Shown here: one piece after another, positions 1,159 to 10,470 of the stretch
Position numbering within the stretch: the stretch's first letter is position 1
Layout of the letters: each line of letters opens with the position of its first letter
Assembly: GCA_947175585.1 (NCBI GenBank)
Contig: CAMWNL010000019.1
Coordinates: forward strand, 1 to 10,470
Source of the DNA: an uncultured Bacteroidales bacterium
GTDB taxonomy: Bacteria > Bacteroidota > Bacteroidia > Bacteroidales > Muribaculaceae
Length of the DNA stretch: 10,470 nt
Direction: 5' to 3'
Translations under genes and position numbers: made by a program
Notes under the pieces: model-generated
Told to the model about the DNA's origin: nothing
Databases searched by the model: none
Seen by the model: only the letters and a program-made list of their open reading frames with translations

Positions 1159-2721
1159 ATGCTGATAAAGACATACGGAGCCGCCGTACAAGGTATTGAC
1201 GCAATTGTAATCACAATTGAAGTAGCCGTAAGTCGTGGTTTCGTCTACACGATAGTCGGGCTACCTGACACTGCTATCAAAGAGAGTAATGAACGTGTCC
1301 GCTCGGCCATGCGTGAATCAGGCTTCGAATTTCCTCGCCGCTCTGTTGTCGTGAACCTCGCTCCGGCTGACGTCAGAAAAGAGGGATCAGCCTATGACCT
1401 CCCGATAGCTATTGGCATACTTACCGCTTCTGAAGAAATTACCGCTCCGGGCATTGACCGCTATATGATGATGGGAGAACTGTCACTCGATGGTACGCTT
1501 TTACCTATCCGCGGCGTGCTGCCTATGGCAATTGAGGCCCGACGGGCAGGTTTTAAGGCCATGATAGTACCTAAGGCCAACGCAACCGAAGCCGCCGTGG
1601 TCAATGATGTTGATGTCTATGGAGCTGAAAATCTACGTGAAGTTATTGATTTTATCAGCGGTCGCACATTGATAGAACCTACCGTTGTCAATACCCGGGA
1701 AGAGTTTGCGACGGCTCGCCAGATCTTTGATTTCGATTTTTCAGAAGTCAAAGGTCAGGAGAATGTTAAACGCGCCTTTGAAGTCGCATGTGCCGGCGGT
1801 CATAATATACTTTTAGTCGGACCTCCCGGTTCGGGTAAATCAATGATGGCAAAACGACTGCCTTCAATTATGCCTCCGTTGACACTTCGCGAAGCACTCG
1901 AAACAACAAAAATCCATTCCGTTGCCGGCAAGCTGAACCGTGGTTCGAAGTTGATGTCTCACCGGCCTTTCCGCTCCCCTCACCACACTATCTCACCTGT
2001 AGCACTCGTAGGAGGCGGATCATCACCAAAACCCGGAGAAATTTCTCTTGCCCATAATGGTATTTTGTTTCTTGATGAGTTCCCTGAATTCACTCGTCCG
2101 GTACTTGAAGTGATGAGACAACCCCTCGAAGACCGTCATATATCAGTGTCGCGTGCACGCTATACTATAGATTATCCGGCCTCGTTTATGCTCGTGGCAT
2201 CGATGAATCCTTGCCCGTGCGGTTACTATAACCACCCCACAAAACCGTGTACCTGTATGCCCGGACAGGTAAGTAAATACCTCAACAGAATTTCAGGTCC
2301 CCTACTCGACCGCATAGACATACAGGTCGAAATTCTCCCGGTACCGTTTCAGAGACTTTCATCTGACGAAGCAGCAGAGACAAGCGATACAATTCGTGAA
2401 CGTGTTATCAAAGCACGAGCCATACAGGAAGAACGTTTTGCCTCCGAACATGAAGTCAACTGCAATGCACAGATGAATTCCCGACTGATAAAACAGTGGT
2501 GTAAACTCGATGACGAAACGATGAAGATTCTCGAAACGGCCATGACCAAGTTCGACATGAGTGCGCGTGCCTACGACCGAATACTTAAAGTAGCCCGGAC
2601 TATTGCCGATCTTGACGGATCTACCGACATCCGTCCGACTCACATGCGCGAAGCGGTGTCCTACCGAAACCTTGACCGTGGTAACTGGGGTGCAACCAAA
2701 GACCTGCCATTTCACGGATAA
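1159..2721 (+). CDS. comM: ComM/YifB family Mg-chelatase-like AAA+ ATPase
   Basis: This is a 520-residue full-length member of the YifB/ComM family. In naturally transformable bacteria ComM acts as a hexameric helicase promoting branch migration during recombination of incoming DNA; in Bacteroidota its role is inferred only. The layout is the N-terminal ChlI/Lon-S5-like domain (about 1-175, with VGLPDTAIKESNERVRSA and the GELSLDG motif), then the AAA+ core with Walker A GPPGSGKS at 221-228 and Walker B GILFLDEF at 301-308. The SHRPFRSPHHT motif lies at 267-277. A Cys cluster follows (C352, C354, C364, C366), and the C-terminal Mg-chelatase helical domain runs from about 410 to 505. The 3' end matters: its final codons (DRGNWGATKDLPFHG) are repeated with variation at 5304-5348, so the current tail may be a replacement brought in by the adjacent cassette. 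Confidence 0.95.
   Translation: MLIKTYGAAVQGIDAIVITIEVAVSRGFVYTIVGLPDTAIKESNERVRSAMRESGFEFPRRSVVVNLAPADVRKEGSAYDLPIAIGILTASEEITAPGIDRYMMMGELSLDGTLLPIRGVLPMAIEARRAGFKAMIVPKANATEAAVVNDVDVYGAENLREVIDFISGRTLIEPTVVNTREEFATARQIFDFDFSEVKGQENVKRAFEVACAGGHNILLVGPPGSGKSMMAKRLPSIMPPLTLREALETTKIHSVAGKLNRGSKLMSHRPFRSPHHTISPVALVGGGSSPKPGEISLAHNGILFLDEFPEFTRPVLEVMRQPLEDRHISVSRARYTIDYPASFMLVASMNPCPCGYYNHPTKPCTCMPGQVSKYLNRISGPLLDRIDIQVEILPVPFQRLSSDEAAETSDTIRERVIKARAIQEERFASEHEVNCNAQMNSRLIKQWCKLDDETMKILETAMTKFDMSARAYDRILKVARTIADLDGSTDIRPTHMREAVSYRNLDRGNWGATKDLPFHG
2672..2696 (+). repeat. direct repeat copy 1, inside the 3' end of comM
   Basis: These are the 25 bases identical to 5305-5329; they begin TTGACCGTGGTAACTGG and encode most of DRGNWGAT. 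With six mismatches the similarity extends to the 42 bases 2671-2712. Here the reading continues KDLPFHG to the stop at 2719-2721, two residues longer than the other copy. It is the candidate left junction of the cassette. Confidence 0.9.
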
Positions 2722-2737
2722 CGACATACGACTATTC

Positions 2738-2749
2738 TAAAAATTTTTA
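2738..2749. other. 12-bp A/T palindrome after comM
   Basis: A5T5 flanked by T and A forms a perfect palindrome in the 39-bp gap between the comM stop and the transglutaminase-like gene. It has no G/C stem, so it is not a convincing rho-independent terminator. TAAGTGTG at 2748-2755 differs from TAnnTTTG at one position but has no clear -33 partner. I therefore cannot say whether the cassette has its own promoter or relies on read-through from comM. Confidence 0.3.
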
Positions 2750-2760
2750 AGTGTGATTAT

Positions 2761-3813
2761 ATGCAAAAGATTACAAACTTAATCATATTCCTGTTGTTGG
2801 CTACTTGTAAAATAACAGCAAGTCCTAGAGATACAATTTATTACGAGAATAATAAGAAATTATTATATGACACGATACCATACATGATTAGAGATCAAGC
2901 CTTCCTTTGTGCGTTTAATGAACTTCAGATGATGTTTACTGGTATTAAGACATACTCTCTGAAAAGAGCTGAGTTTATTGTTGAATGGGCATATTCCGGA
3001 GGAAAAATGGAGTACTCAAAATTTTGCCATGATATAGATAGTGTAACTAATATTCTAAAGAATTTTATCAAAGTAAATAATATTCAGCAATTTATCACTG
3101 CTCCAAACTTCGCTCTATTTGAATACTTTACTAAACCAAGTCCTATGAATGAGAACAAAGCTTTCGTTTATGACTTTGACGATTTTACTGGTGAAAAAGA
3201 TTTTAGAAAGCAGTTCGTCACCAAAGTAATGGAAACTCATACAGGTCAATGCACATCATTACCATTATATTATAAAATATTATGCGATGAACTTGGTGGT
3301 CAATCATTTCTTGCTTTTGCTCCACGACACATGTATATTAAACATATCGGAGAAGATGGTAAATGGGTGAATATAGAACTCACCAACGGTCACTTCGTCC
3401 GTGACGAATGGATGATACAAACAAGTCAAATCAGCACAGAAGCAATACGCAACGGAGTATTTTTGACAGCCCTTTCTGAAAAAGAAAATATTGCATTTAT
3501 GATAACACAATTGGGGAAAGCCTACCATCAGAAATATAATTCATGGGATTACTTTCCACTGCAATGCGCAGAAGAGGTACTAAAATTATTACCAAACTTT
3601 TGTGATGCTCTTATATTAAAACTTTGTGTTCATCAGCAACTAGGTCGTAATTATCTATACAAATATGGACAGATACGTTCAAATTACGCAGACTATAATT
3701 ATGGAGAGTTTAAGCGAATGATAAACACGCTTGATAGTCTTGGATATTCTCAGCAGACAGACGACGAATACAAAAATAGCGTTGAAAAAGCATTAAATGA
3801 TATTAAAAAATAA
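2761..3813 (+). CDS. secreted transglutaminase-like (SirB1-like) protein with helical C-terminus
   Basis: This 350-residue protein has an N-terminal hydrophobic segment (NLIIFLLLATCKITA). It ends either in a lipobox (LATC, Cys 16) or in a signal-peptidase I site near A20, so export is likely but the anchoring is unclear. The middle carries a papain/transglutaminase-like triad pattern: GQCTSLPLYYKILCDELGG with candidate nucleophile C164, PRHMYI with candidate H190, and WVNIELTNG at 202-210 with N204 or E206 as third residue. The arrangement, including W-N-I-E-x-T-x-G, recalls the SirB1-like transglutaminase group. Residues about 235-345 are helical and TPR-like. It is the first gene of the AT-rich cassette, 9 bp before the RHS-tip gene. 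Its partner or substrate is unknown; acting on the neighbouring RHS-tip protein is a speculative possibility. Confidence 0.7.
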   Translation: MQKITNLIIFLLLATCKITASPRDTIYYENNKKLLYDTIPYMIRDQAFLCAFNELQMMFTGIKTYSLKRAEFIVEWAYSGGKMEYSKFCHDIDSVTNILKNFIKVNNIQQFITAPNFALFEYFTKPSPMNENKAFVYDFDDFTGEKDFRKQFVTKVMETHTGQCTSLPLYYKILCDELGGQSFLAFAPRHMYIKHIGEDGKWVNIELTNGHFVRDEWMIQTSQISTEAIRNGVFLTALSEKENIAFMITQLGKAYHQKYNSWDYFPLQCAEEVLKLLPNFCDALILKLCVHQQLGRNYLYKYGQIRSNYADYNYGEFKRMINTLDSLGYSQQTDDEYKNSVEKALNDIKK

Positions 3814-3822
3814 AATTAAAAA

Positions 3823-4854
3823 ATGGATTTAATAGTTTCAATAAGAGATATTAGGATTATTTTACAGATAATCTTTTTAATAAGCATAGGAATAAACACA
3901 TCAGCCCAAAGTCCTTATGCTGTTTTCGGAGATAATTCAGAAATGCTTGAGGCAAAGAGTCTACCTACTTCACTCATTTATAGTATAGAAGTTAGAAAAA
4001 CTAATGGAAACTCACTTTATGCATACTTTGATCTAAATAAAGGTATTGTAACATTATTCGATACTGAAGATAACATCTTTATGCATGATAGCATAAGCAT
4101 TAGTGAAAAGGCAATGTTTACCACAGTCGATCCTCACGCAGGAAACTACTATAACTTAAATACGTATACCTATTGTGGTGGAAATCCTATTAATGCGATA
4201 GATATAGATGGCAAAGATTGGTATCAAAATAACCAAACATCATATTATACTTGGTTTGATGGAGATGAAGAAAGAGAAGGATTTACTTATATTGGTGGCA
4301 AAGGTTGTGTACTTGGCGAAGAATTTGAAAATATTCTGAATAATGTACTCTGCGGCAAGGATGGCTTAGGGCTAGAAAGTTTATATAGTAATGGTTTTAC
4401 ATTTGATATTGCTCCAATTGATAAAGGCGGATTAATAGGTTCGAAAGAACGCGGATGGGATTTCTTTGACGAATTTGTTGATGGATCTGGTCCAGAGTTT
4501 ACGGTTCTATTAGAGAATCACCCATATACACAAGCGATAATGAATGATGACTTCGCGGTAAATAGCCAAAATATCGTTAGATCTAGAGGTAAAAATGGTC
4601 AGTATACAAATGTTGGAAGATCTGCATTTTTCCCTTGGCAGGCAAGTCTATTAAGTCCTATGCAATTCATTGGAACATATAGATATGATGGATATAGTAG
4701 TAATGACGGCAAATCTATATATAACATAGCAACAGACTCGAAAAGTGTCACTTCACTTGGTTATCATATACCATTCCTCAGTAATCATAGGAGAAGTAAG
4801 CAAAACTCATTTGGAAATACCTATCAATTTTATTTATGGAAATCAACAAGATGA
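3823..4854 (+). CDS. orphan RHS-core tip protein with unassigned C-terminal domain
   Basis: A 343-residue protein whose N-terminal hydrophobic segment (about 11-28) ends TSA, with predicted cleavage before QSPYAVFGDN. Residues about 97-132 carry the end of an RHS repeat-associated core: FTTVDPHAGNYYNLNTY, then TYCGGNPINAIDIDGKDW, matching the usual DP..A..YY..SPY.Y..NNP.N.IDPDG pattern. In full RHS/YD-repeat toxins this motif is the hinge before the variable toxic tip, and proteins are usually over 1000 residues; here the repeats are absent and a short secreted N-terminus replaces them. The tip (132-343) contains WDFFDEFVDGSGPEFTVLLE, TYRYDGYSSNDG and a basic HRRSKQNSFGNTYQFYLWK end. I do not recognise a nuclease, deaminase, ADP-ribosyltransferase or other catalytic motif. 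It overlaps the next gene by ATGA, as toxin-immunity pairs often do. Toxic activity is not shown. Confidence 0.75.
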   Translation: MDLIVSIRDIRIILQIIFLISIGINTSAQSPYAVFGDNSEMLEAKSLPTSLIYSIEVRKTNGNSLYAYFDLNKGIVTLFDTEDNIFMHDSISISEKAMFTTVDPHAGNYYNLNTYTYCGGNPINAIDIDGKDWYQNNQTSYYTWFDGDEEREGFTYIGGKGCVLGEEFENILNNVLCGKDGLGLESLYSNGFTFDIAPIDKGGLIGSKERGWDFFDEFVDGSGPEFTVLLENHPYTQAIMNDDFAVNSQNIVRSRGKNGQYTNVGRSAFFPWQASLLSPMQFIGTYRYDGYSSNDGKSIYNIATDSKSVTSLGYHIPFLSNHRRSKQNSFGNTYQFYLWKSTR

Positions 4855-5303
4855 AATACATATATATAATCTTGGTGTGTATCGCCTCACTGTTAATTCT
4901 GAATGACTATTTCTGCTATAGCAGGAGAATTGGTAATACTCGTTTCTATCTTGTAGAAACAATGGCCAATTCAAAAGATGGTAAACCATTAGCAGGACTA
5001 TTTTATAAGCCTACTGCTGTTTCAAGCTATAACGGTGAGAATACACCGGGATTTCCAAAAACGATCTTATGGAATGAGCATTATATTATATCTAAGAACT
5101 TTGATGGAAACAATGATGAGATTGTCGAGTATATAATTATTAATATGGATAGTATTAAACCTGAATTTGGTGAGATGAAAAAAGTAAACAGATTTCATGA
5201 TGAGAATACATATTACAATTATTTGAGACAAATTAATTTATCCGAAGCTGACATGAGTCATACAGACAATCATATAGTATGGTGGCAATCGTTATATTGG
5301 TAA
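4851..5303 (+). CDS. small membrane-anchored protein, candidate immunity partner
   Basis: This 150-residue protein follows the RHS-tip gene. I chose the ATG at 4851 because it overlaps the upstream TGA as ATGA, a common translational-coupling arrangement, and gives MKYIYIILVCIASLLIL, a proper N-terminal hydrophobic anchor. The in-frame ATG at 4836 would add five residues and lie inside the RHS-tip gene. The rest (RFYLVET, GFPKTILWNEHYIISKN, EIVEYIIINMDS, then aromatic WWQSLYW) is a compact mixed strand/helix domain with no catalytic motif. It faintly recalls small Bacteroidota lipoproteins of the DUF3997 kind, but that is from memory. Position after an RHS tip makes an immunity role the natural guess, and an envelope anchor would suit a toxin met outside the cytoplasm. 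Its stop codon directly abuts the second comM-end copy, in the same frame. Confidence 0.7.
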   Translation: MKYIYIILVCIASLLILNDYFCYSRRIGNTRFYLVETMANSKDGKPLAGLFYKPTAVSSYNGENTPGFPKTILWNEHYIISKNFDGNNDEIVEYIIINMDSIKPEFGEMKKVNRFHDENTYYNYLRQINLSEADMSHTDNHIVWWQSLYW

Positions 5304-5348
5304 TTTGACCGTGGTAACTGGGGTGCAACTAAAGATATTCCATTCTAA
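5304..5348 (+). pseudogene. remnant of comM 3' end (14 codons plus stop)
   Basis: Reading from 5304 gives FDRGNWGATKDIPF and then TAA at 5346-5348, matching the comM tail LDRGNWGATKDLPFHG. Over 42 bases it differs from 2671-2712 at six positions. Three of the five altered codons are synonymous and the other two are conservative (Leu/Phe, Leu/Ile). That pattern points to two separately evolved comM tails, not a fresh duplication. The DUF389 start follows 17 bp later, a spacing that fits a former comM-DUF389 operon. Confidence 0.85.
5305..5329 (+). repeat. direct repeat copy 2, candidate right junction
   Basis: Twenty-five bases identical to 2672-2696. It begins one base after the stop-adjacent codon boundary that follows the small cassette gene. 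If integration was site-specific, the crossover lay within this identical block; if homologous, it lay here or further into comM. Confidence 0.9.
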
Positions 5349-5365
5349 ACACAAAGTATTGATGC

Positions 5366-6730
5366 ATGAAATCCATTGATATCAGAGATCTGAAAAATAG
5401 CCTGAAGGGGTATTTTGACATAACCGATTATCTTATTCCTCAGGCTGAAGCCGAGCAAGCTATCCGCGAAGGTGTGTCTTTCAGAGGAATCAACATACTT
5501 ATTCTTATCGTCGCTATTTTTATTGCTTCGTTAGGACTCAATACCAACTCTACGGCAGTGATTATCGGCGCGATGTTGATTTCTCCGCTTATGGGACCTA
5601 TTATCGGCATAGGTTTAGCAGTAGGCATTCATGACTTTGACCTGATGAAGCGTGCGTTTCGCAATCTTATGATGGCAACATTATTCAGCGTAGCGACTTC
5701 GTGTATCTACTTTTTAATATCGCCTGTAAACGAGGCACACAGCGAGCTTCTCGCTCGTACATCACCGACTATTTACGACGTTTTTATCGGCTTTTTTGGT
5801 GGTGCAGCCGGAATACTTGCTATCGGTAGTCGTGTTAAAGGAAATGTAATCCCCGGCGTAGCAATCGCTACCGCTCTTATGCCACCGCTATGCACAGTCG
5901 GCTACGGTCTGGCCACTTTTCAGATGCACTATTTCTTCGGTGCTCTATTTCTATTTTTCATTAACTCAGTCTTTATCGCATGTGCAACCACAGTAGGAGT
6001 AAAACTGATGAACTATCATATAAAGGACTTTTCTAACCCTCAGAGAGCCCGTAAGGTTCGCAATATTGTGTATTCAATAGCTATCCTTACTATGATACCC
6101 TCTTGCTATCTTACTTACCGCATGTATCAGCAATCAACCTTCATCAGTAACTGCAATAACTTTGTCGACCAACAATTCAACTTCGAAGGTACACAAGTGC
6201 TTCATTCGAGTGCGGTGATGGAAGGCAAACATAAGACCCTGACAGTAAGCCTAGTCGGCAAAATATTGCCCACAGATTCACTTACGCTCGCCCTGACCGA
6301 CCGTTTACCTGAATACAATCTCGGAGGCACTACCTTACGCATAATTCAAGGTGATAATGCAGATGGAAATTTTGATGCCACTCAAGCGACCTCGACTATG
6401 CTTCGCGATATGTATCAGGTTACTCAGAATACCATTAATTCACAACGGGAAACTATAGACTCTCTACGCGCTGTCAACGCCGTGGCTGTGGCTAATGACA
6501 CTATCGCAGCCCGGATTTCTCCGGAAATTAAAGTTCTGTTTCCTGAAATCAAAGATATTGCTATCACGCGTGCTATATCAAGCAGTATTGATTCGATGCG
6601 TCTCGACACTATCAATGTCGTATTGGTTAGTTATAATAGACCAATGGGAGTCGCCCAATCCCAAAAATTTAAAGAGTATCTTGAAGCCCGTCTCGACAAA
6701 AAAGATATTATAATAGTATCGACAAAATAA
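5366..6730 (+). CDS. DUF389 family (TIGR00341-like) inner-membrane protein
   Basis: A 454-residue membrane protein of the DUF389 family, function unknown. Residues 41-57, 65-89, 100-120, 136-154, about 160-183, 190-210 and 233-251 are hydrophobic, giving roughly seven membrane segments. Family hallmarks are visible: NSTAVIIGAMLISPLMGPI at 61-79 and IATALMPPLCTVGYG at 167-181. The last 200 residues (about 255-454) are soluble, strand/helix in character, with a Ser/Thr-rich helical stretch (QNTINSQRETIDSLRAVNAV) and a strand-rich end (DTINVVLVSYN...DIIIVSTK). This tail is long compared with minimal members. The gene was probably next to comM before the cassette arrived. It converges on xerD with only 8 bp between stops and no visible terminator hairpin. 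Confidence 0.85.
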   Translation: MKSIDIRDLKNSLKGYFDITDYLIPQAEAEQAIREGVSFRGINILILIVAIFIASLGLNTNSTAVIIGAMLISPLMGPIIGIGLAVGIHDFDLMKRAFRNLMMATLFSVATSCIYFLISPVNEAHSELLARTSPTIYDVFIGFFGGAAGILAIGSRVKGNVIPGVAIATALMPPLCTVGYGLATFQMHYFFGALFLFFINSVFIACATTVGVKLMNYHIKDFSNPQRARKVRNIVYSIAILTMIPSCYLTYRMYQQSTFISNCNNFVDQQFNFEGTQVLHSSAVMEGKHKTLTVSLVGKILPTDSLTLALTDRLPEYNLGGTTLRIIQGDNADGNFDATQATSTMLRDMYQVTQNTINSQRETIDSLRAVNAVAVANDTIAARISPEIKVLFPEIKDIAITRAISSSIDSMRLDTINVVLVSYNRPMGVAQSQKFKEYLEARLDKKDIIIVSTK

Positions 6731-6738
6731 CAACGTCA

Positions 6739-7653
6739 TCAGCGAGCATTGCGCGGATGATATGTCAGAATCTCCTCTCGAAGATGTGATTTGTCGAGAT
6801 GCAGATACAACTCGGTAGTGGCGATTGATTCGTGGCCAAGCATCTGCTGTATGGCTCGAAGATTTGCTCCGCCCTCCAGCAAATGTGTAGCAAATGAATG
6901 ACGCAGCGTATGTGGTGAGATAGTTTTTCTGACGCCGGCTGCCTCCGCTAAATCACGGACAATATAGAAAACCATAACACGTGTAAGGCGTTTGCCACGA
7001 CGTCCGAGAAATAATATACCCTCCTCTCCCCTCTTTACCGGGATTTCCGCACGGTTTCTGAGCCACAAACGTATCTCATCCATTGAACTCTCAGACATCG
7101 GGACAAGGCGCTGCTTGTCACCTTTACCTATGACTATCATGAAACCTTCATCGAAATTAATATTGTCAATGCGTAAATTACATAATTCACTCACACGCAA
7201 TCCACAGCCATAAAGAGTCTCGATAATCGCACGGTTACGCTGACCCTCATGCTTGGTCATGTCAACGCATCCTACCATATCATTGATTTCTTCGACAGTC
7301 AGCACTTCCGGTAATTTACGTCCGAGACGAGGGCTTTCCAATAGAAGCGTAGGATTATTTTCAATCAATCCCTCAGTCATCATATATTTATATAGAGACT
7401 TTATTCCCGACAATATGCGTGCCTGCGATCGAGGAGCTATGCCAAGCTGATGCAGGTCTATGATGAAACCTTGCAGACAGTCGAGTGTAGCGGTGTAAAG
7501 TGACTGGCCGATATTATCCAGCCAATCCACAAGGCGGTCAGCATCGGCGAGGTAATTGATACGGGTATTCTCCGATAATCCGCGCTCAAGCGTCAAAAAT
7601 GCTTGATAATGCGCTCTGAGTGTCCGGTATTCAGGTAGATAGACGGTTGTCAT
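6739..7653 (-). CDS. xerD: XerD-like site-specific tyrosine recombinase
   Basis: XerC/XerD recombinases resolve chromosome dimers at dif near the terminus. This 304-residue protein has the standard length and layout: an N-terminal SAM-like core-binding domain (about 8-95, LERGLSENTRINYLADADRL) and a C-terminal catalytic domain. All catalytic residues are present: R153 in GCGLRVSEL, K177 in GKGDKQRLVP, H248 and R251 in SPHTLRHSFATHLLEGG, H274 in MLGHESI and the nucleophile Y283 in TTELYLHL. The start ATG (7651-7653) gives the usual short N-terminus. It follows the DUF4294 gene by 12 bp and is probably in one transcript with it. It reads as the housekeeping enzyme; XerC/XerD paralogy in Bacteroidota makes the exact letter less certain. 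Its nearness to the cassette 1.4 kb away may be chance. Confidence 0.88.
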   Translation of the reverse strand: MTTVYLPEYRTLRAHYQAFLTLERGLSENTRINYLADADRLVDWLDNIGQSLYTATLDCLQGFIIDLHQLGIAPRSQARILSGIKSLYKYMMTEGLIENNPTLLLESPRLGRKLPEVLTVEEINDMVGCVDMTKHEGQRNRAIIETLYGCGLRVSELCNLRIDNINFDEGFMIVIGKGDKQRLVPMSESSMDEIRLWLRNRAEIPVKRGEEGILFLGRRGKRLTRVMVFYIVRDLAEAAGVRKTISPHTLRHSFATHLLEGGANLRAIQQMLGHESIATTELYLHLDKSHLREEILTYHPRNAR

Positions 7654-7665
7654 GAAAAGAATTAA

Positions 7666-8298
7666 TTAGATAGTACCTTCCTCGACAGCACAGGCCACTC
7701 TCTCCAATATGGCGTCCTCTCTATCCTTGCCGGGTTGAAATTCCGATTTTAGGCTGACACCGAACAATTTACCGAAACCCTGCCAGAAAGTCGCTCTAAA
7801 CGATCCGAGAAAGGCCTTGACTATGTCGTAGCTCGTCTGATGAGTCTCGCGCTGCACGAGCTTGATCAACACTCTTGCCTGACGTTTGGAAAATCTTTTC
7901 AGCACCGGTTTATATTGCTCGAATAATGATTTCTCCATTTCTTTCAGATATTGTTCCCGCTCTTTCTGGGTGGGAAAAGTCTCGATATATTCATAGGTCT
8001 CAATGAGTGTCTCCGCAATCAATTTTGCATAAGGAAGGGTCAGCTTAACATCGCGGACTGTGCGCCAATAGAAATCCTCCTCTTTCTTATTTTTAAAATT
8101 CCACTTCTTAAATACAGTTATACCACGCAAGTTGATGACCGGAACTGTATCGCCTTCCTCATCAACTTTCCAAGAGTAAGACCTGATATAGTTTCGGCCG
8201 AGAGGTGCGGGCTCAGCCACGTCGTCAGGCATAGCCGACAACGAAAAAGCAGCTCCCCAAAAAAGCATGGATATTATGCCTGTAGTGAAATTCTTCAT
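7666..8298 (-). CDS. DUF4294 domain-containing exported protein
   Basis: A 210-residue protein with an N-terminal signal peptide (NFTTGIISMLFWGAAFSLSA, cleavage likely near LSA-MP). The body carries the DUF4294 pattern seen across Bacteroidota: a conserved VINLRGITVF strand, then FYWRTVRDVKLTLPYAKL, an ETFPTQKEREQYLKEMEK helix, and RFSKRQARVLIKLVQRETHQTSYDIVK, and an acidic KDREDAILERV near the end. The function is unknown; the location is probably periplasmic or envelope. It is upstream of xerD and divergent from the TPR regulator across 81 bp. The reverse strand has TAAGTTGG about 25-35 bp before the start, one base off TAnnTTTG, without a clear -33 partner, so the promoter is uncertain. 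Confidence 0.85.
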   Translation of the reverse strand: MKNFTTGIISMLFWGAAFSLSAMPDDVAEPAPLGRNYIRSYSWKVDEEGDTVPVINLRGITVFKKWNFKNKKEEDFYWRTVRDVKLTLPYAKLIAETLIETYEYIETFPTQKEREQYLKEMEKSLFEQYKPVLKRFSKRQARVLIKLVQRETHQTSYDIVKAFLGSFRATFWQGFGKLFGVSLKSEFQPGKDREDAILERVACAVEEGTI

Positions 8299-8367
8299 AA
8301 ATAATATAACGCTCTAAACCAACTTATATTTCGCTCTCACAGGCTTTTTTTCTTATCATTCTTTTAT

Positions 8368-8375
8368 TATATTTG
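8368..8375 (+). promoter_or_regulatory. Bacteroidota -7 box TATATTTG for the TPR regulator
   Basis: TATATTTG matches TAnnTTTG exactly. The -33 zone (about 8343-8350) is a T-run, not a clean TTTG. The box ends only 4 bp before the GTG start at 8380, so transcription from it would begin at or about the start codon. Confidence 0.5.
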
Positions 8376-8379
8376 CAGT

Positions 8380-10038
8380 GTGAACCGAAGATTTCATACC
8401 GCCGTCATCTCCCTCATCCTGCTCATGACCGCTTGTGTCGGTGACAATCGGGTGAATGAAACACTGCAAACGGCTGACCGGCTGATATTTGTAGCGCCGG
8501 ACTCCGCTGTCATCATGCTTGACAGCCTTGACCTCGACCACGCCTCGCGAGCACAACGCGCCCGTCACGCCCTCTTGCTCACCAAGGCGCGAGAGAAAGC
8601 CAACATCACCGTCACCGACGACTCGCTCATAGCCATCGCCGCCGACTATTACCGCGGCCACGGCGACAGCCTCGAAGTACAGAGCCTTTTCTATCACGGA
8701 GTTATCCTCGGCTATCGCGATGACTACCCCCGCGCGCTGCTGTCACTAATTCAGGCTGCCGACCTCGCCGACGCCATCGGCGATGACTTCTACCGCGCCA
8801 TGGCCTGCCGCGAGCAGGTCGGCGTCTACACCAAGCTCTACGAGTTTGACCGCGCCGCTCGCCTCGGCGAGGAAGCAGTCAGAGCCTTTAATCGCGCCGG
8901 CCGCCCCCTCCATGCCGCTTGGGAGCGAGTCTTTATCCCTCAGTCGTTGCTCTATTCGGGCAATATTAATGCCGCCTGCGACTCCATCGCCGTCCTTGCC
9001 ACCGATAGCCTTATCCAGTCTGACCCACATCTGCGCCAGGAGTTCCTCCATATCGCTACCAACGTTTACTTTGAGAAGCACGATTTCGAGCAGTCAGAGT
9101 CCTACTTTGACGCCTATATAGATGAAGGTGATGCCCCGTCGTCAAAAATGCTATCTCAGATGGCCGAACTCGTTCTTGCAAAAGGCGATATCACTAAAGC
9201 TAAACATTATTACGATCTCGCCATAGCCGCTCATCTGTCCGCTTCTGACAGCCTTGCCGCCCTCGCCGTCCTCTCTCAGATTTATGAGGCAGAGGGCGAT
9301 TTTAAGAATGCTCACCTCTTAAATGTAGCAGCCCAAAACGCTGCTACTAACTCAACCAATGCCCTTATCACCCATCCCTACACCGCCCTGCTCAACGACT
9401 ATTTTCACTCGGAGGTCAGCCGCCAGTCGCTATTGCTCGACGAGGCTTCGCTTCGGACAATAATCTGGTTTTTAATCGCAGTTATCCTGACGGCTGCTAT
9501 CATTGCATTAATCCTCACTCATCGCCGTGCACTCCGTCGCCGCGACGTAGAGCGTAACTCCTTAATCAATGACCTCGGACGTCTCGAGTCGCAAATCAGC
9601 CTGCTTAATCAGCAACTTATCAATCAGTCGGCTGGCAAAAAATCTGCTGCCATCACCCTGCTTAATGCCATCTGCGAGGCGCGTAACTCTATGCTTTCAG
9701 GTGACGAAGGGCAACGAAGATTTGTCAATAGCATATCCTCCACCATCGCCTCACTCTCATCTGACGAGATTTTAGCCGATATTGAGGATTTTGTAAATGC
9801 CAATAGCCGCAATCTTATGGCGAAATTCCGTGAGCAGCTCCCCGGTCTGACTGACAAGCAGTATAGGATTGCCCTGCTGACATTCTTCGGACTCTCGCCA
9901 TCGTCGATTTCAGCCATAATGCAATACTCATCGTCAAGCGCAGTACGCAACATACGCGCTCGCATCCGAAAAGCCATCCAAGAGCATCCCTCACCCGACA
10001 GCGGCCTGTTTTTGTCTTATTTTTCAACCCAAATTTGA
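8380..10038 (+). CDS. TPR lipoprotein-type membrane regulator with cytoplasmic LuxR-like HTH
   Basis: A 552-residue one-protein envelope-to-DNA regulator of a type common in Bacteroidales. The start is GTG at 8380; there is no upstream in-frame ATG, and this start gives a hydrophobic N-terminus ending LLMTAC with lipobox Cys 19. Residues about 25-345 are helical TPR-like repeats, presumably periplasmic sensing or protein contact. A single membrane helix lies at 360-380 (IIWFLIAVILTAAIIALILT), followed by basic HRRALRRRD and a coiled coil (about 384-417). The end (about 488-533) has LTDKQYRIALLTFFGLSPSS followed by ISAIMQYSSSSAVRNIRARIRKAI, matching the LuxR/GerE-like HTH of this family. Lipidation of the N-terminus together with a downstream membrane helix would tether both ends. 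G+C content is clearly higher than in the cassette. The likely target is the small secreted-protein gene 158 bp downstream, by analogy with similar neighbourhoods; that is inference. Confidence 0.8.
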   Translation: MNRRFHTAVISLILLMTACVGDNRVNETLQTADRLIFVAPDSAVIMLDSLDLDHASRAQRARHALLLTKAREKANITVTDDSLIAIAADYYRGHGDSLEVQSLFYHGVILGYRDDYPRALLSLIQAADLADAIGDDFYRAMACREQVGVYTKLYEFDRAARLGEEAVRAFNRAGRPLHAAWERVFIPQSLLYSGNINAACDSIAVLATDSLIQSDPHLRQEFLHIATNVYFEKHDFEQSESYFDAYIDEGDAPSSKMLSQMAELVLAKGDITKAKHYYDLAIAAHLSASDSLAALAVLSQIYEAEGDFKNAHLLNVAAQNAATNSTNALITHPYTALLNDYFHSEVSRQSLLLDEASLRTIIWFLIAVILTAAIIALILTHRRALRRRDVERNSLINDLGRLESQISLLNQQLINQSAGKKSAAITLLNAICEARNSMLSGDEGQRRFVNSISSTIASLSSDEILADIEDFVNANSRNLMAKFREQLPGLTDKQYRIALLTFFGLSPSSISAIMQYSSSSAVRNIRARIRKAIQEHPSPDSGLFLSYFSTQI

Positions 10039-10048
10039 TCGCGTGACG
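10039..10048 (+). repeat. 10-bp direct repeat copy 1, possible operator
   Basis: TCGCGTGACG lies immediately after the regulator's TGA and recurs at 10113-10122. This copy sits between CAAATT (10030-10035) and AATTTG (10050-10055), a perfect inverted pair, so the region has mixed symmetry typical of a protein-binding site. Confidence 0.45.
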
Positions 10049-10112
10049 TAATTTGTTTTATGCACTTTTATAAAGCGTTGATTTCTTGGTGGCTACAAAG
10101 CGCTTAAAACAC

Positions 10113-10122
10113 TCGCGTGACG
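10113..10122 (+). repeat. 10-bp direct repeat copy 2, possible activator site
   Basis: The second TCGCGTGACG starts 74 bp after the first and ends 8 bp before the -33 TTTG of the downstream promoter, a position from which an activator could contact RNA polymerase. A CAAATT follows at 10125-10130. Confidence 0.45.
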
Positions 10123-10130
10123 CACAAATT

Positions 10131-10163
10131 TTTGGCAACAACTGCCCTCACATCGTAACTTTG
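10131..10163 (+). promoter_or_regulatory. Bacteroidota sigma-ABfr-type promoter for the DUF3244-like gene
   Basis: TTTG at 10131-10134 and TAACTTTG at 10156-10163 match the -33 and -7 elements (TTTG and TAnnTTTG) with a 21-bp spacer, within the usual range. Transcription would start near 10168-10171, leaving a leader of roughly 26-30 nt before the ATG at 10197. Confidence 0.7.
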
Positions 10164-10196
10164 CGATCATAATACCAACTTAAAATCGATTATTTT

Positions 10197-10470
10197 ATGA
10201 CCGCAATTTTAACCAAACGCATTTTCTTCGCTCTACTGCTTGCGATATTCAGCGTAGGATTTTCATTTGCCTCCGATCACGAGCCAAAGGAAAAACCTAT
10301 AATATTGGAGCCGGTCGTTGGTACAACTGCGCCAACAAAACCTAAAGCGCCCTCATTACTTAAGATTTCGGCATACACTGATGGCAATGCAGTTGTCATT
10401 ACATCTATTGTCGACAATATGGCTCACGTTCTGATTTGCGATGCTTCAGGTCAGACCTATAATAATAGCG
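10197..10470 (+). CDS. small secreted DUF3244-like protein, 3' truncated by window end
   Basis: An ATG at 10197 opens a frame that stays open to the window end (91 codons visible). Residues 9-26 form a signal peptide (IFFALLLAIFSVGFSFAS). A Pro/Lys-rich linker follows (EPKEKPIILEPVVGTTAPTK), then strand-rich sequence (LLKISAYTDGNAVVITSIVD, MAHVLICDASGQTYNNS). This order fits the DUF3244 family of small Bacteroidales secreted proteins with an immunoglobulin-like beta-sandwich and a C-terminal V.I....G..VY motif region. It has a well-formed promoter of its own and follows a TPR-TM-HTH regulator, which may control it. The function is unknown. Confidence 0.7.
   Translation, partial: MTAILTKRIFFALLLAIFSVGFSFASDHEPKEKPIILEPVVGTTAPTKPKAPSLLKISAYTDGNAVVITSIVDNMAHVLICDASGQTYNNS

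Follow-up and report, generated by a model that had tools for sequence, protein, structure and literature searches.

The DNA analyzed here, which we call the window (10,470 nucleotides (nt) of contig CAMWNL010000019.1, from an uncultured bacterium of the Muribaculaceae), holds a 2.6-kb segment that lies directly behind comM, a gene for a YifB-type ATPase, and is bordered on either side by a copy of that gene's last codons. From left to right, the features at this locus are as follows.

1159..2721, + strand: comM, encoding a YifB-type Mg-chelatase-like AAA ATPase of 520 amino acids (aa), intact and ending with the new tail (TIGR00368, 660 bits; Pfam Mg_chelatase/ChlI/Mg_chelatase_C)
2671..2721, + strand: comM tail copy 1, LDRGNWGATKDLPFHG plus stop codon (2719-2721), the end now used, read as cassette-borne
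2672..2696, + strand: 25-base-pair (bp) core, copy 1 (direct-repeat search)
2722..5303, no strand: inserted cassette, 32.8% guanine plus cytosine (GC), absent from the relative G043
2761..3813, + strand: cassette gene 1, 350 aa, putative transglutaminase-like core plus helical domain with a menin-like model (invariant residues, model, Foldseek)
3823..4854, + strand: cassette gene 2, 343 aa, putative Rhs-associated core and, behind it, a predicted C-terminal toxin domain (TIGR03696, below cut-off)
4836..5303, + strand: cassette gene 3, 155 aa, predicted immunity protein whose stop abuts the second comM tail (position, overlap with gene 2)
5304..5348, + strand: comM tail copy 2, FDRGNWGATKDIPF plus stop codon (5346-5348), read as the displaced old end, its last residues being those of G043
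5305..5329, + strand: 25-bp core, copy 2 (direct-repeat search)
5366..6730, + strand: DUF389 gene, the right host flank (Pfam DUF389)

The strongest direct repeat of the window, as found by a repeat search, joins 2672-2711 to 5305-5344 (40 nt, 36/40 identical, spacing 2633), and the second best covers only 23 nt at 74%. An earlier note on this DNA had claimed that the last 14 codons of comM recur at 5304-5345, with 36 of 42 bases identical, a perfect 25-bp core and an offset of 2633 bp. Our recount (2671-2712 against 5304-5345) agrees with this, as does the repeat search, and the coordinates confirm that the DUF389 gene follows the second tail by 17 bp, as the note had stated. The local score of the tail repeat is 30.0, whereas 500 triplet shuffles reach 14.0 at most and the 339 other 60-mers of the window 14.5. 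The two tails agree in the core and diverge in the last codons, and the substitutions between them are, as the note also held, synonymous or conservative (L/F and L/I). Copy 2 is a headless tail that begins right behind the stop of cassette gene 3; the comM gene itself is a whole open 520-aa frame, and so is not interrupted at its Walker B part. The end of comM is directly repeated at both cassette borders and the gene restored, a trait of integrase-bearing elements that use the 3' end of a gene.

The interval between the tails is filled by three open reading frames (ORFs; 350, 343 and 155 aa). With a GC content of 32.8%, against 49.3% for comM and 42.8% for the DUF389 gene, the cassette is AT-rich and foreign in composition. 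The earlier note's statement that it encodes no recombinase stood up to profile searches of the window ORFs, in which no cassette ORF matched a recombinase model; likewise, no YRec/TnsF or Tn7 transposition genes were recognized among the window ORFs, TnsF itself not having been searched for. In gene 1, residues C164, H190, N204 and E206 are invariant across 32 aligned sequences. Its predicted structure (predicted local distance difference test score (pLDDT) 88) has menin as its best Foldseek matches (probability 1.00, E 2.4e-3, TMq 0.43), with none at E <= 0.001, and we take the protein to combine a transglutaminase-like core and a helical domain. Gene 2 has a putative Rhs core motif (TIGR03696, E 7e-6, 26.4 bits, under the 32.5 cut-off) and a C-terminus read as variable, and a small gene adjoins it. 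Its structural model is weak (pLDDT 64.5, no structural match at E <= 0.001), and a fold assignment was dropped for this reason. Gene 3 has no Pfam match. By prediction, the three genes encode an interbacterial toxin of the Rhs type, the matching immunity protein and a transglutaminase-like partner; gene 1 adjoins an Rhs-type gene elsewhere too (G063, G243 and G041).

The nearest genome by comM is G043 (95% aa identity), among 43 other genomes of the genus with a comM match (48 others were searched). Its comM has a single tail, ending SSWGATKDIPF and stop, and the DUF389 gene follows without a cassette or second tail between them. The ending DIPF plus stop is common to copy 2 of the window and G043, the comM genes of near relatives ending in either DIPF or TLPF. 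When the window comM is fused in silico to copy 2 at the core, the ending becomes GNWGATKDIPF plus stop, which equals that of G043 except for GN in place of SS. G043 thus has the expected empty site. The earlier note's picture of such a site was right about the one tail ending DIPF and the missing cassette and wrong about the spacing, the DUF389 gene lying ~200 bp away and not 17; across G043, G017 and G032 this gene stands 0.2-1.1 kb behind comM. Replacement as a visible step within the window comM was also considered and rejected, as no such step is seen in sliding identity to G043, G017, G036 and G001.

Displaced comM ends in other genomes

Besides the window, downstream copies of the comM end stand out, among the best 30 of 104 comM loci scanned, in L118 (Prevotellamassilia timonensis), L103 (Spirosoma spitsbergense, with HTH and HipA-type cargo), L122 (Saprospiraceae), L063 (Muribaculaceae) and, weakly, L067. 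The remainder of these 30 lie at background, and the reverse-strand score never exceeds 14 in any of them; L063 and L175 (G429, Muribaculaceae) give the same numbers. When only loci not picked for repeats are counted, a downstream copy is present at 4 of 102 testable comM ends versus 7 of 823 other gene ends (one-sided Fisher p = 0.025), and of the seven control copies, five are 71-74% matches as between paralogues and two are 87-92% matches.

Within the Muribaculaceae, two or more comM matches were counted manually in 57 of the 373 comM-bearing genomes (397 searched), genus g17 contributing 43 of them. We re-searched 50 of the 57, and 32 of these (again a manual count), from five genera, carry 5'-truncated comM 3' fragments on the same contig as comM. 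The fragments are downstream and co-oriented in 32/32 cases, with older 3' ends kept in order as in displacement arrays, and upstream or inverted copies are found in none of the 32. The other 18 represent genes split into two matches, paralogues, fragments on other contigs, or, in G330, fragments without a full gene. The figure of 32 is a lower bound, since tails as short as the window's fall under that search. Displaced ends with differing cargo in relatives, at five further loci (L067 weakly) and in 32 of 50 Muribaculaceae genomes, bear out the earlier note on two counts, namely that the comM 3' end may be a recurring entry point and that other cassettes would lie behind such repeats. The short repeat that it describes is toward one extreme of size; in relatives the displaced ends span ~30 (weak) to 700 bp.

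As the window comes from a draft assembly (409 contigs, 77% complete), a chance match or a misassembly might be suspected. We rejected both as barely credible, given the repeat score (30 versus 14 at most) and the recurrence of the same plan in other records, including the named strains Prevotellamassilia timonensis An873 and Spirosoma spitsbergense DSM 19989 and many other assemblies.

The genes of the window cassette are found elsewhere to differing extents. The whole gene 2 protein is matched in 34 of 149 genomes, its C-terminus in 3 of 397. The earlier note had raised the possibility that every relative keeps the same three genes, which is not so: the toxin domain is present in only three of the 397 family genomes (the window, G193 and G354), and in 3/3 it lies directly 3' of comM. 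G193 and G354, which belong to one other genus and probably represent one event, keep the last 60-80 toxin residues, followed by an immunity homologue at 34-35% identity. Behind this immunity gene the final 13-14 nt of comM recur with a score at background, so that a second tail there is only suggestive. Homologues of gene 1 occur in 23 of 397 genomes (window counted), and those away from comM rule it out as a comM-specific gene. Neither the comM tail pattern nor the gene 2 protein was found in IMG/VR, the toxin domain had no match in plasmids and gene 1 none in phages. Viral contigs contain 14 comM loci, 8 with a usable C-terminus, and none is among the above-background rows of the comM-end scan (best 30 of 104).

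Cassette exchange, fragment edges and the mode of entry

Cassettes are shared between array genomes. L166 and L179 have a common cassette with 98.6% identity over 2704 bp (100% across most of the cargo), which occupies the second and the first array position, respectively; their comM genes are 81-88% identical over the first 800 nt (12-19% different). L167 carries this cassette at 92%, and L169 and L177 have one common cassette at 99.6%. On the right, the L166/L179 identity ends within the comM tail that trails the cassette, 12 nt short of the stop, and hence the last codons of that tail belong to the next cargo; this breakpoint appears to follow the same logic as the two tails of the window. 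These data bear on an in-place duplication of comM, with cargo falling between the copies and the second copy decaying, an explanation in favor of which stand the many broken or internally deleted fragments. We find it very improbable, as the window tails differ in their last codons and the relative G043 has the second version, a 98.6% cassette sits in two genomes with comM genes 12-19% apart, and no upstream or inverted copies occur in the 32 same-contig cases.

Taken together, the two tails, the foreign composition, the empty site and the tandem arrays in relatives demonstrate, at the level of sequence, insertion at the comM end with displacement, and the earlier note's claim of an element that replaces the gene end on entry and leaves the old end downstream is supported by the same tails, empty site and arrays. 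On balance, we consider it probable that a gene cassette, the 2.6-kb segment, was acquired by recombination inside the 3' end of comM, whereby comM gained new last codons and the old ones came to lie at 5304-5348. The incoming DNA would consist of the last comM codons with their stop, the cargo and a piece of a comM 3' end. It would pair with the resident comM end, and a crossover inside the tail would join the DNA while keeping comM, each later arrival shifting earlier cargo and displaced ends further downstream. The driver we prefer would be ordinary homologous (RecA-type) recombination, possibly during DNA uptake, with no cassette enzyme involved. The recurrence of displaced ends, the sharing of cassettes and a toxin domain that is always behind comM suggest that the comM tail is where cassettes come in, each with new last codons and each displacing the old end to a position downstream. 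The tail thus likely serves as a dock for the repeated arrival of mobile genes, probably in cassettes that lack a recombination enzyme of their own.

The displaced fragments begin at recurring sites, i.e., near codon 281 (family A) and at codon 305 (family B); shorter displaced tails begin near codons 364, 400, 416, 458, 476 and 480, and the window's at codon 505. In family A, the edge CCCACCACATAATCGTATACTTGTGCC precedes comM codon 281. Its pattern was found in 5 of 198 genomes at eight places, seven at comM fragments and the eighth in G222 (reversed control, 0). In family B, a leader of ~100 bp precedes codon 305 and the fragments begin at LDE[FL]PEF, which we take to be the Walker B codons of comM. 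The family B leader (L166, L167, L178-L182) has a TATCTTTG box; in some copies the comM fragment is fused to an open frame that has a hydrophobic stretch, and other copies have stops.

Several points weigh against homologous entry at the comM tail. The conserved edges stand at the 5' side of the fragment beside unrelated cargo (family A, 14 rows; family B leader, 15/17 rows), and the cassette common to L168 and L206 loses identity exactly at the family A edge. These edges and this break appear to fit a site-specific end better than free homologous recombination. The window lineage has one known empty site only, with a different spacing, and comM is broken in the array genomes G393, G389 (near codons 307-314) and G371/L179. 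The gene 1 module is not tied to comM, as gene 1 stands beside it in 0 of the 15 other genomes with comM position listed, and the difference between comM and control gene ends depends on four loci. The rise in third-position identity toward the comM 3' end of array genomes gives no independent support, because GC rises too and the corrected value does not. Third-position GC (four-fold-type codons) over the last 25 codons is 0.95-0.97 in array genomes (L166-L184, L206-L215) versus 0.64-0.75 in two control sets; homogenization of the 3' end was rejected, since raw identity climbs and the composition-corrected value does not. Finally, the mobility of the cassettes is read from sequences, without an observed circular form or transfer.

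The edges invite a different explanation, in which cassettes are inserted into comM in trans by a site-specific recombinase (of the tyrosine type or TnsF/Tsy-like, encoded elsewhere in the cell or since lost), the edges being element ends and the long fragments attR half-sites. The position of CCCACCACATAATCGTATACTTGTGCC and the family B leader beside unrelated cargo, the concentration of the family A pattern at comM fragments, the halt of L168/L206 identity and the identical 25-bp core of the window, which with its diverging sides resembles attL/attR, all speak for it, as does the start of family B at the presumed Walker B codons. That is the comM region bound by TnsF of Tn6022 and Tsy, according to excerpts of PMC10293859. 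On the other hand, the window cassette has no recombinase, PF00589 is absent from 20 of 21 array stretches (the exception being a truncated copy in G147), the shorter tails have no common start codon, L166/L179 breaks inside the tail, and Tsy interrupts comM, which is whole in the window. We regard a recombinase in trans as unlikely overall, with an appreciable chance of being right. Both processes may have contributed, the long fragments having a site-specific origin and homologous exchange having acted since.

Homology-facilitated illegitimate recombination, in which linear DNA is anchored on the left in comM and joined on the right by microhomology in independent events, would suit displaced ends of many lengths, and this model was put forward for type VI secretion system (T6SS) effector-immunity arrays (excerpts of PMC5361080). 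The common edges of families A and B and the 25-bp right-hand match in the window exceed microhomology, which makes this mode improbable in our view. For the long fragments, families A and B already combine one right-hand junction with several cargos, which speaks against it; for the short ones it may still apply.

Flanks and array cargo

To the right of the DUF389 gene, the window contains the following features.

6739-7653, - strand: XerD-like tyrosine recombinase gene, outside the cassette (TIGR02225, 316 bits, just below cut-off)
7666-10038, further right: genes for a DUF4294 protein (210 aa) and a 552-aa TPR-like protein, both ordinary-looking

The XerD-like gene is the tyrosine recombinase nearest to the window cassette. 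We read it as host flank because the motif is present at the same place in G043 and G017: a crude tyrosine-recombinase motif scan behind comM (148 loci) matched only on the contigs of these two genomes (L032, L033, L052), a scan that missed the truncated G147 copy detected by PF00589. Directly behind comM, G036 has an AAA_14/DUF4143 ATPase gene and G017 an ORF of 312 aa that weakly resembles an IS200-type transposase (below cut-off). ORFs matching PF01797 (IS200-type transposase) below cut-off lie directly behind comM at L033:5606-6544 (-) and L067:6092-7066 (+), one locus having a weak second tail. Palindromic repeats of the AAATAAGC/GCTTATTT type accompany DUF4143/AAA_14 ATPase genes behind comM (the comM-DUF389 gap of L032, i.e., G043; L035; L168, ~700-960; L206, ~9937-10197). 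The G043 gap has them without the ATPase gene, and is perhaps the scar of an earlier cassette.

The cargo of the arrays was surveyed with 118 ORFs of at least 90 aa from 23 loci, dereplicated to 107, of which 88 were scanned; among the 19 others are the large transport-type genes of a 15-kb unit in L169. Among the 25 commonest families of the 81 and 159 matched in two scans are AAA_14/DUF4143 (5-6 members), ThsB-like TIR (2) and AriA-like (2), as well as AbiEii, McrBC, RhuM and HNH genes. Further cargo comprises a SocA/Panacea and MqsR-like (weak) set, an HNH homing-type gene, an alpha-amylase and leucine-rich-repeat genes. Defence-model matches number at least about ten in total, a count that has no control for defence enrichment. 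Overall, the cargo is predicted to be varied and partly defence- or toxin-antitoxin-like. Of 22 loci checked, 13 are flanked on the right, at distances that vary, by a gene that we take to be of AMP-binding type. The cargo behind comM begins in L167 with an HNH endonuclease that has homing-associated repeats (2308-2970), and homologues at the DNA level are present in L172 and L184. Such insertions could be driven by an enzyme that cuts comM.

Known systems and meaning

Elements such as e14 at icd and the islands at tRNA genes bear an integrase and use the 3' end of a gene as attachment site, restoring the gene. The window resembles them in that the gene end is replaced at entry, the old end stands at the far side and the core is short and identical; they carry an integrase, however, and none is found here, where the displaced ends of relatives moreover vary from ~30 to 700 bp. 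Integrons hold ordered cassettes behind one entry point, exchange them between strains and include toxin-antitoxin or defence genes in their cargo. The comM arrays are alike in order, single entry point, exchange and such cargo. They differ in that what recurs is part of a protein-coding gene and that no integrase was found (no search for attC sites was made). Tsy and Tn6022 have in common with the arrays that comM is targeted, that a displaced comM 3' portion stands behind the cargo and that family B starts at the presumed Walker B codons. These two, in excerpts of PMC10293859, target the Walker B part via TnsF, interrupt comM and encode YRec/TnsF or Tn7 genes, whereas the window comM is whole and the join lies at its extreme 3' end.

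In the T6SS effector-immunity arrays of Vibrio cholerae, as excerpts of PMC5361080 describe them, each incoming module joins the 3' end of an anchor gene, older 3' ends and genes move downstream, and modules are swapped by homologous recombination with no integrase found. The comM arrays share entry at the 3' end, displaced ends in order, a probably homologous module swap and the lack of a detected integrase. They differ in their anchor, which in V. cholerae is a toxin gene behind which immunity genes accumulate and here is an unrelated housekeeping gene, usually whole, with varied cargo. By this comparison, the comM arrays come closest in working to the V. cholerae arrays, the housekeeping anchor and the varied cargo being what would be new. 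No description of comM 3'-end arrays in Bacteroidota was found in the open-licence literature, judged by titles and abstract starts, with part of the searches also matching words in 'comm-'; this falls short of proving absence.

Bacteria pass defence, toxin-antitoxin and toxin-immunity genes among themselves, and how small recombinase-free cassettes re-find one place is rarely visible. Here, each comM fragment would mark one arrival, so that the order of arrival, exchange and loss could be read from genomes, and scanning behind comM may be a cheap route to new defence genes in gut Bacteroidota. For ComM, a role in helping transformation-acquired DNA to recombine is reported (cited in PMC10293859, excerpts); given this role, the entry point and the entry route may be linked. 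Thus, we arrive at a tentative proposal, possible rather than probable, that the comM 3' end is the landing pad of an integrase-free Bacteroidota cassette system in which each cassette carries a comM piece as its homology arm. If true, a gene for the recombination of taken-up DNA would double as an ordered, growing library of defence genes.

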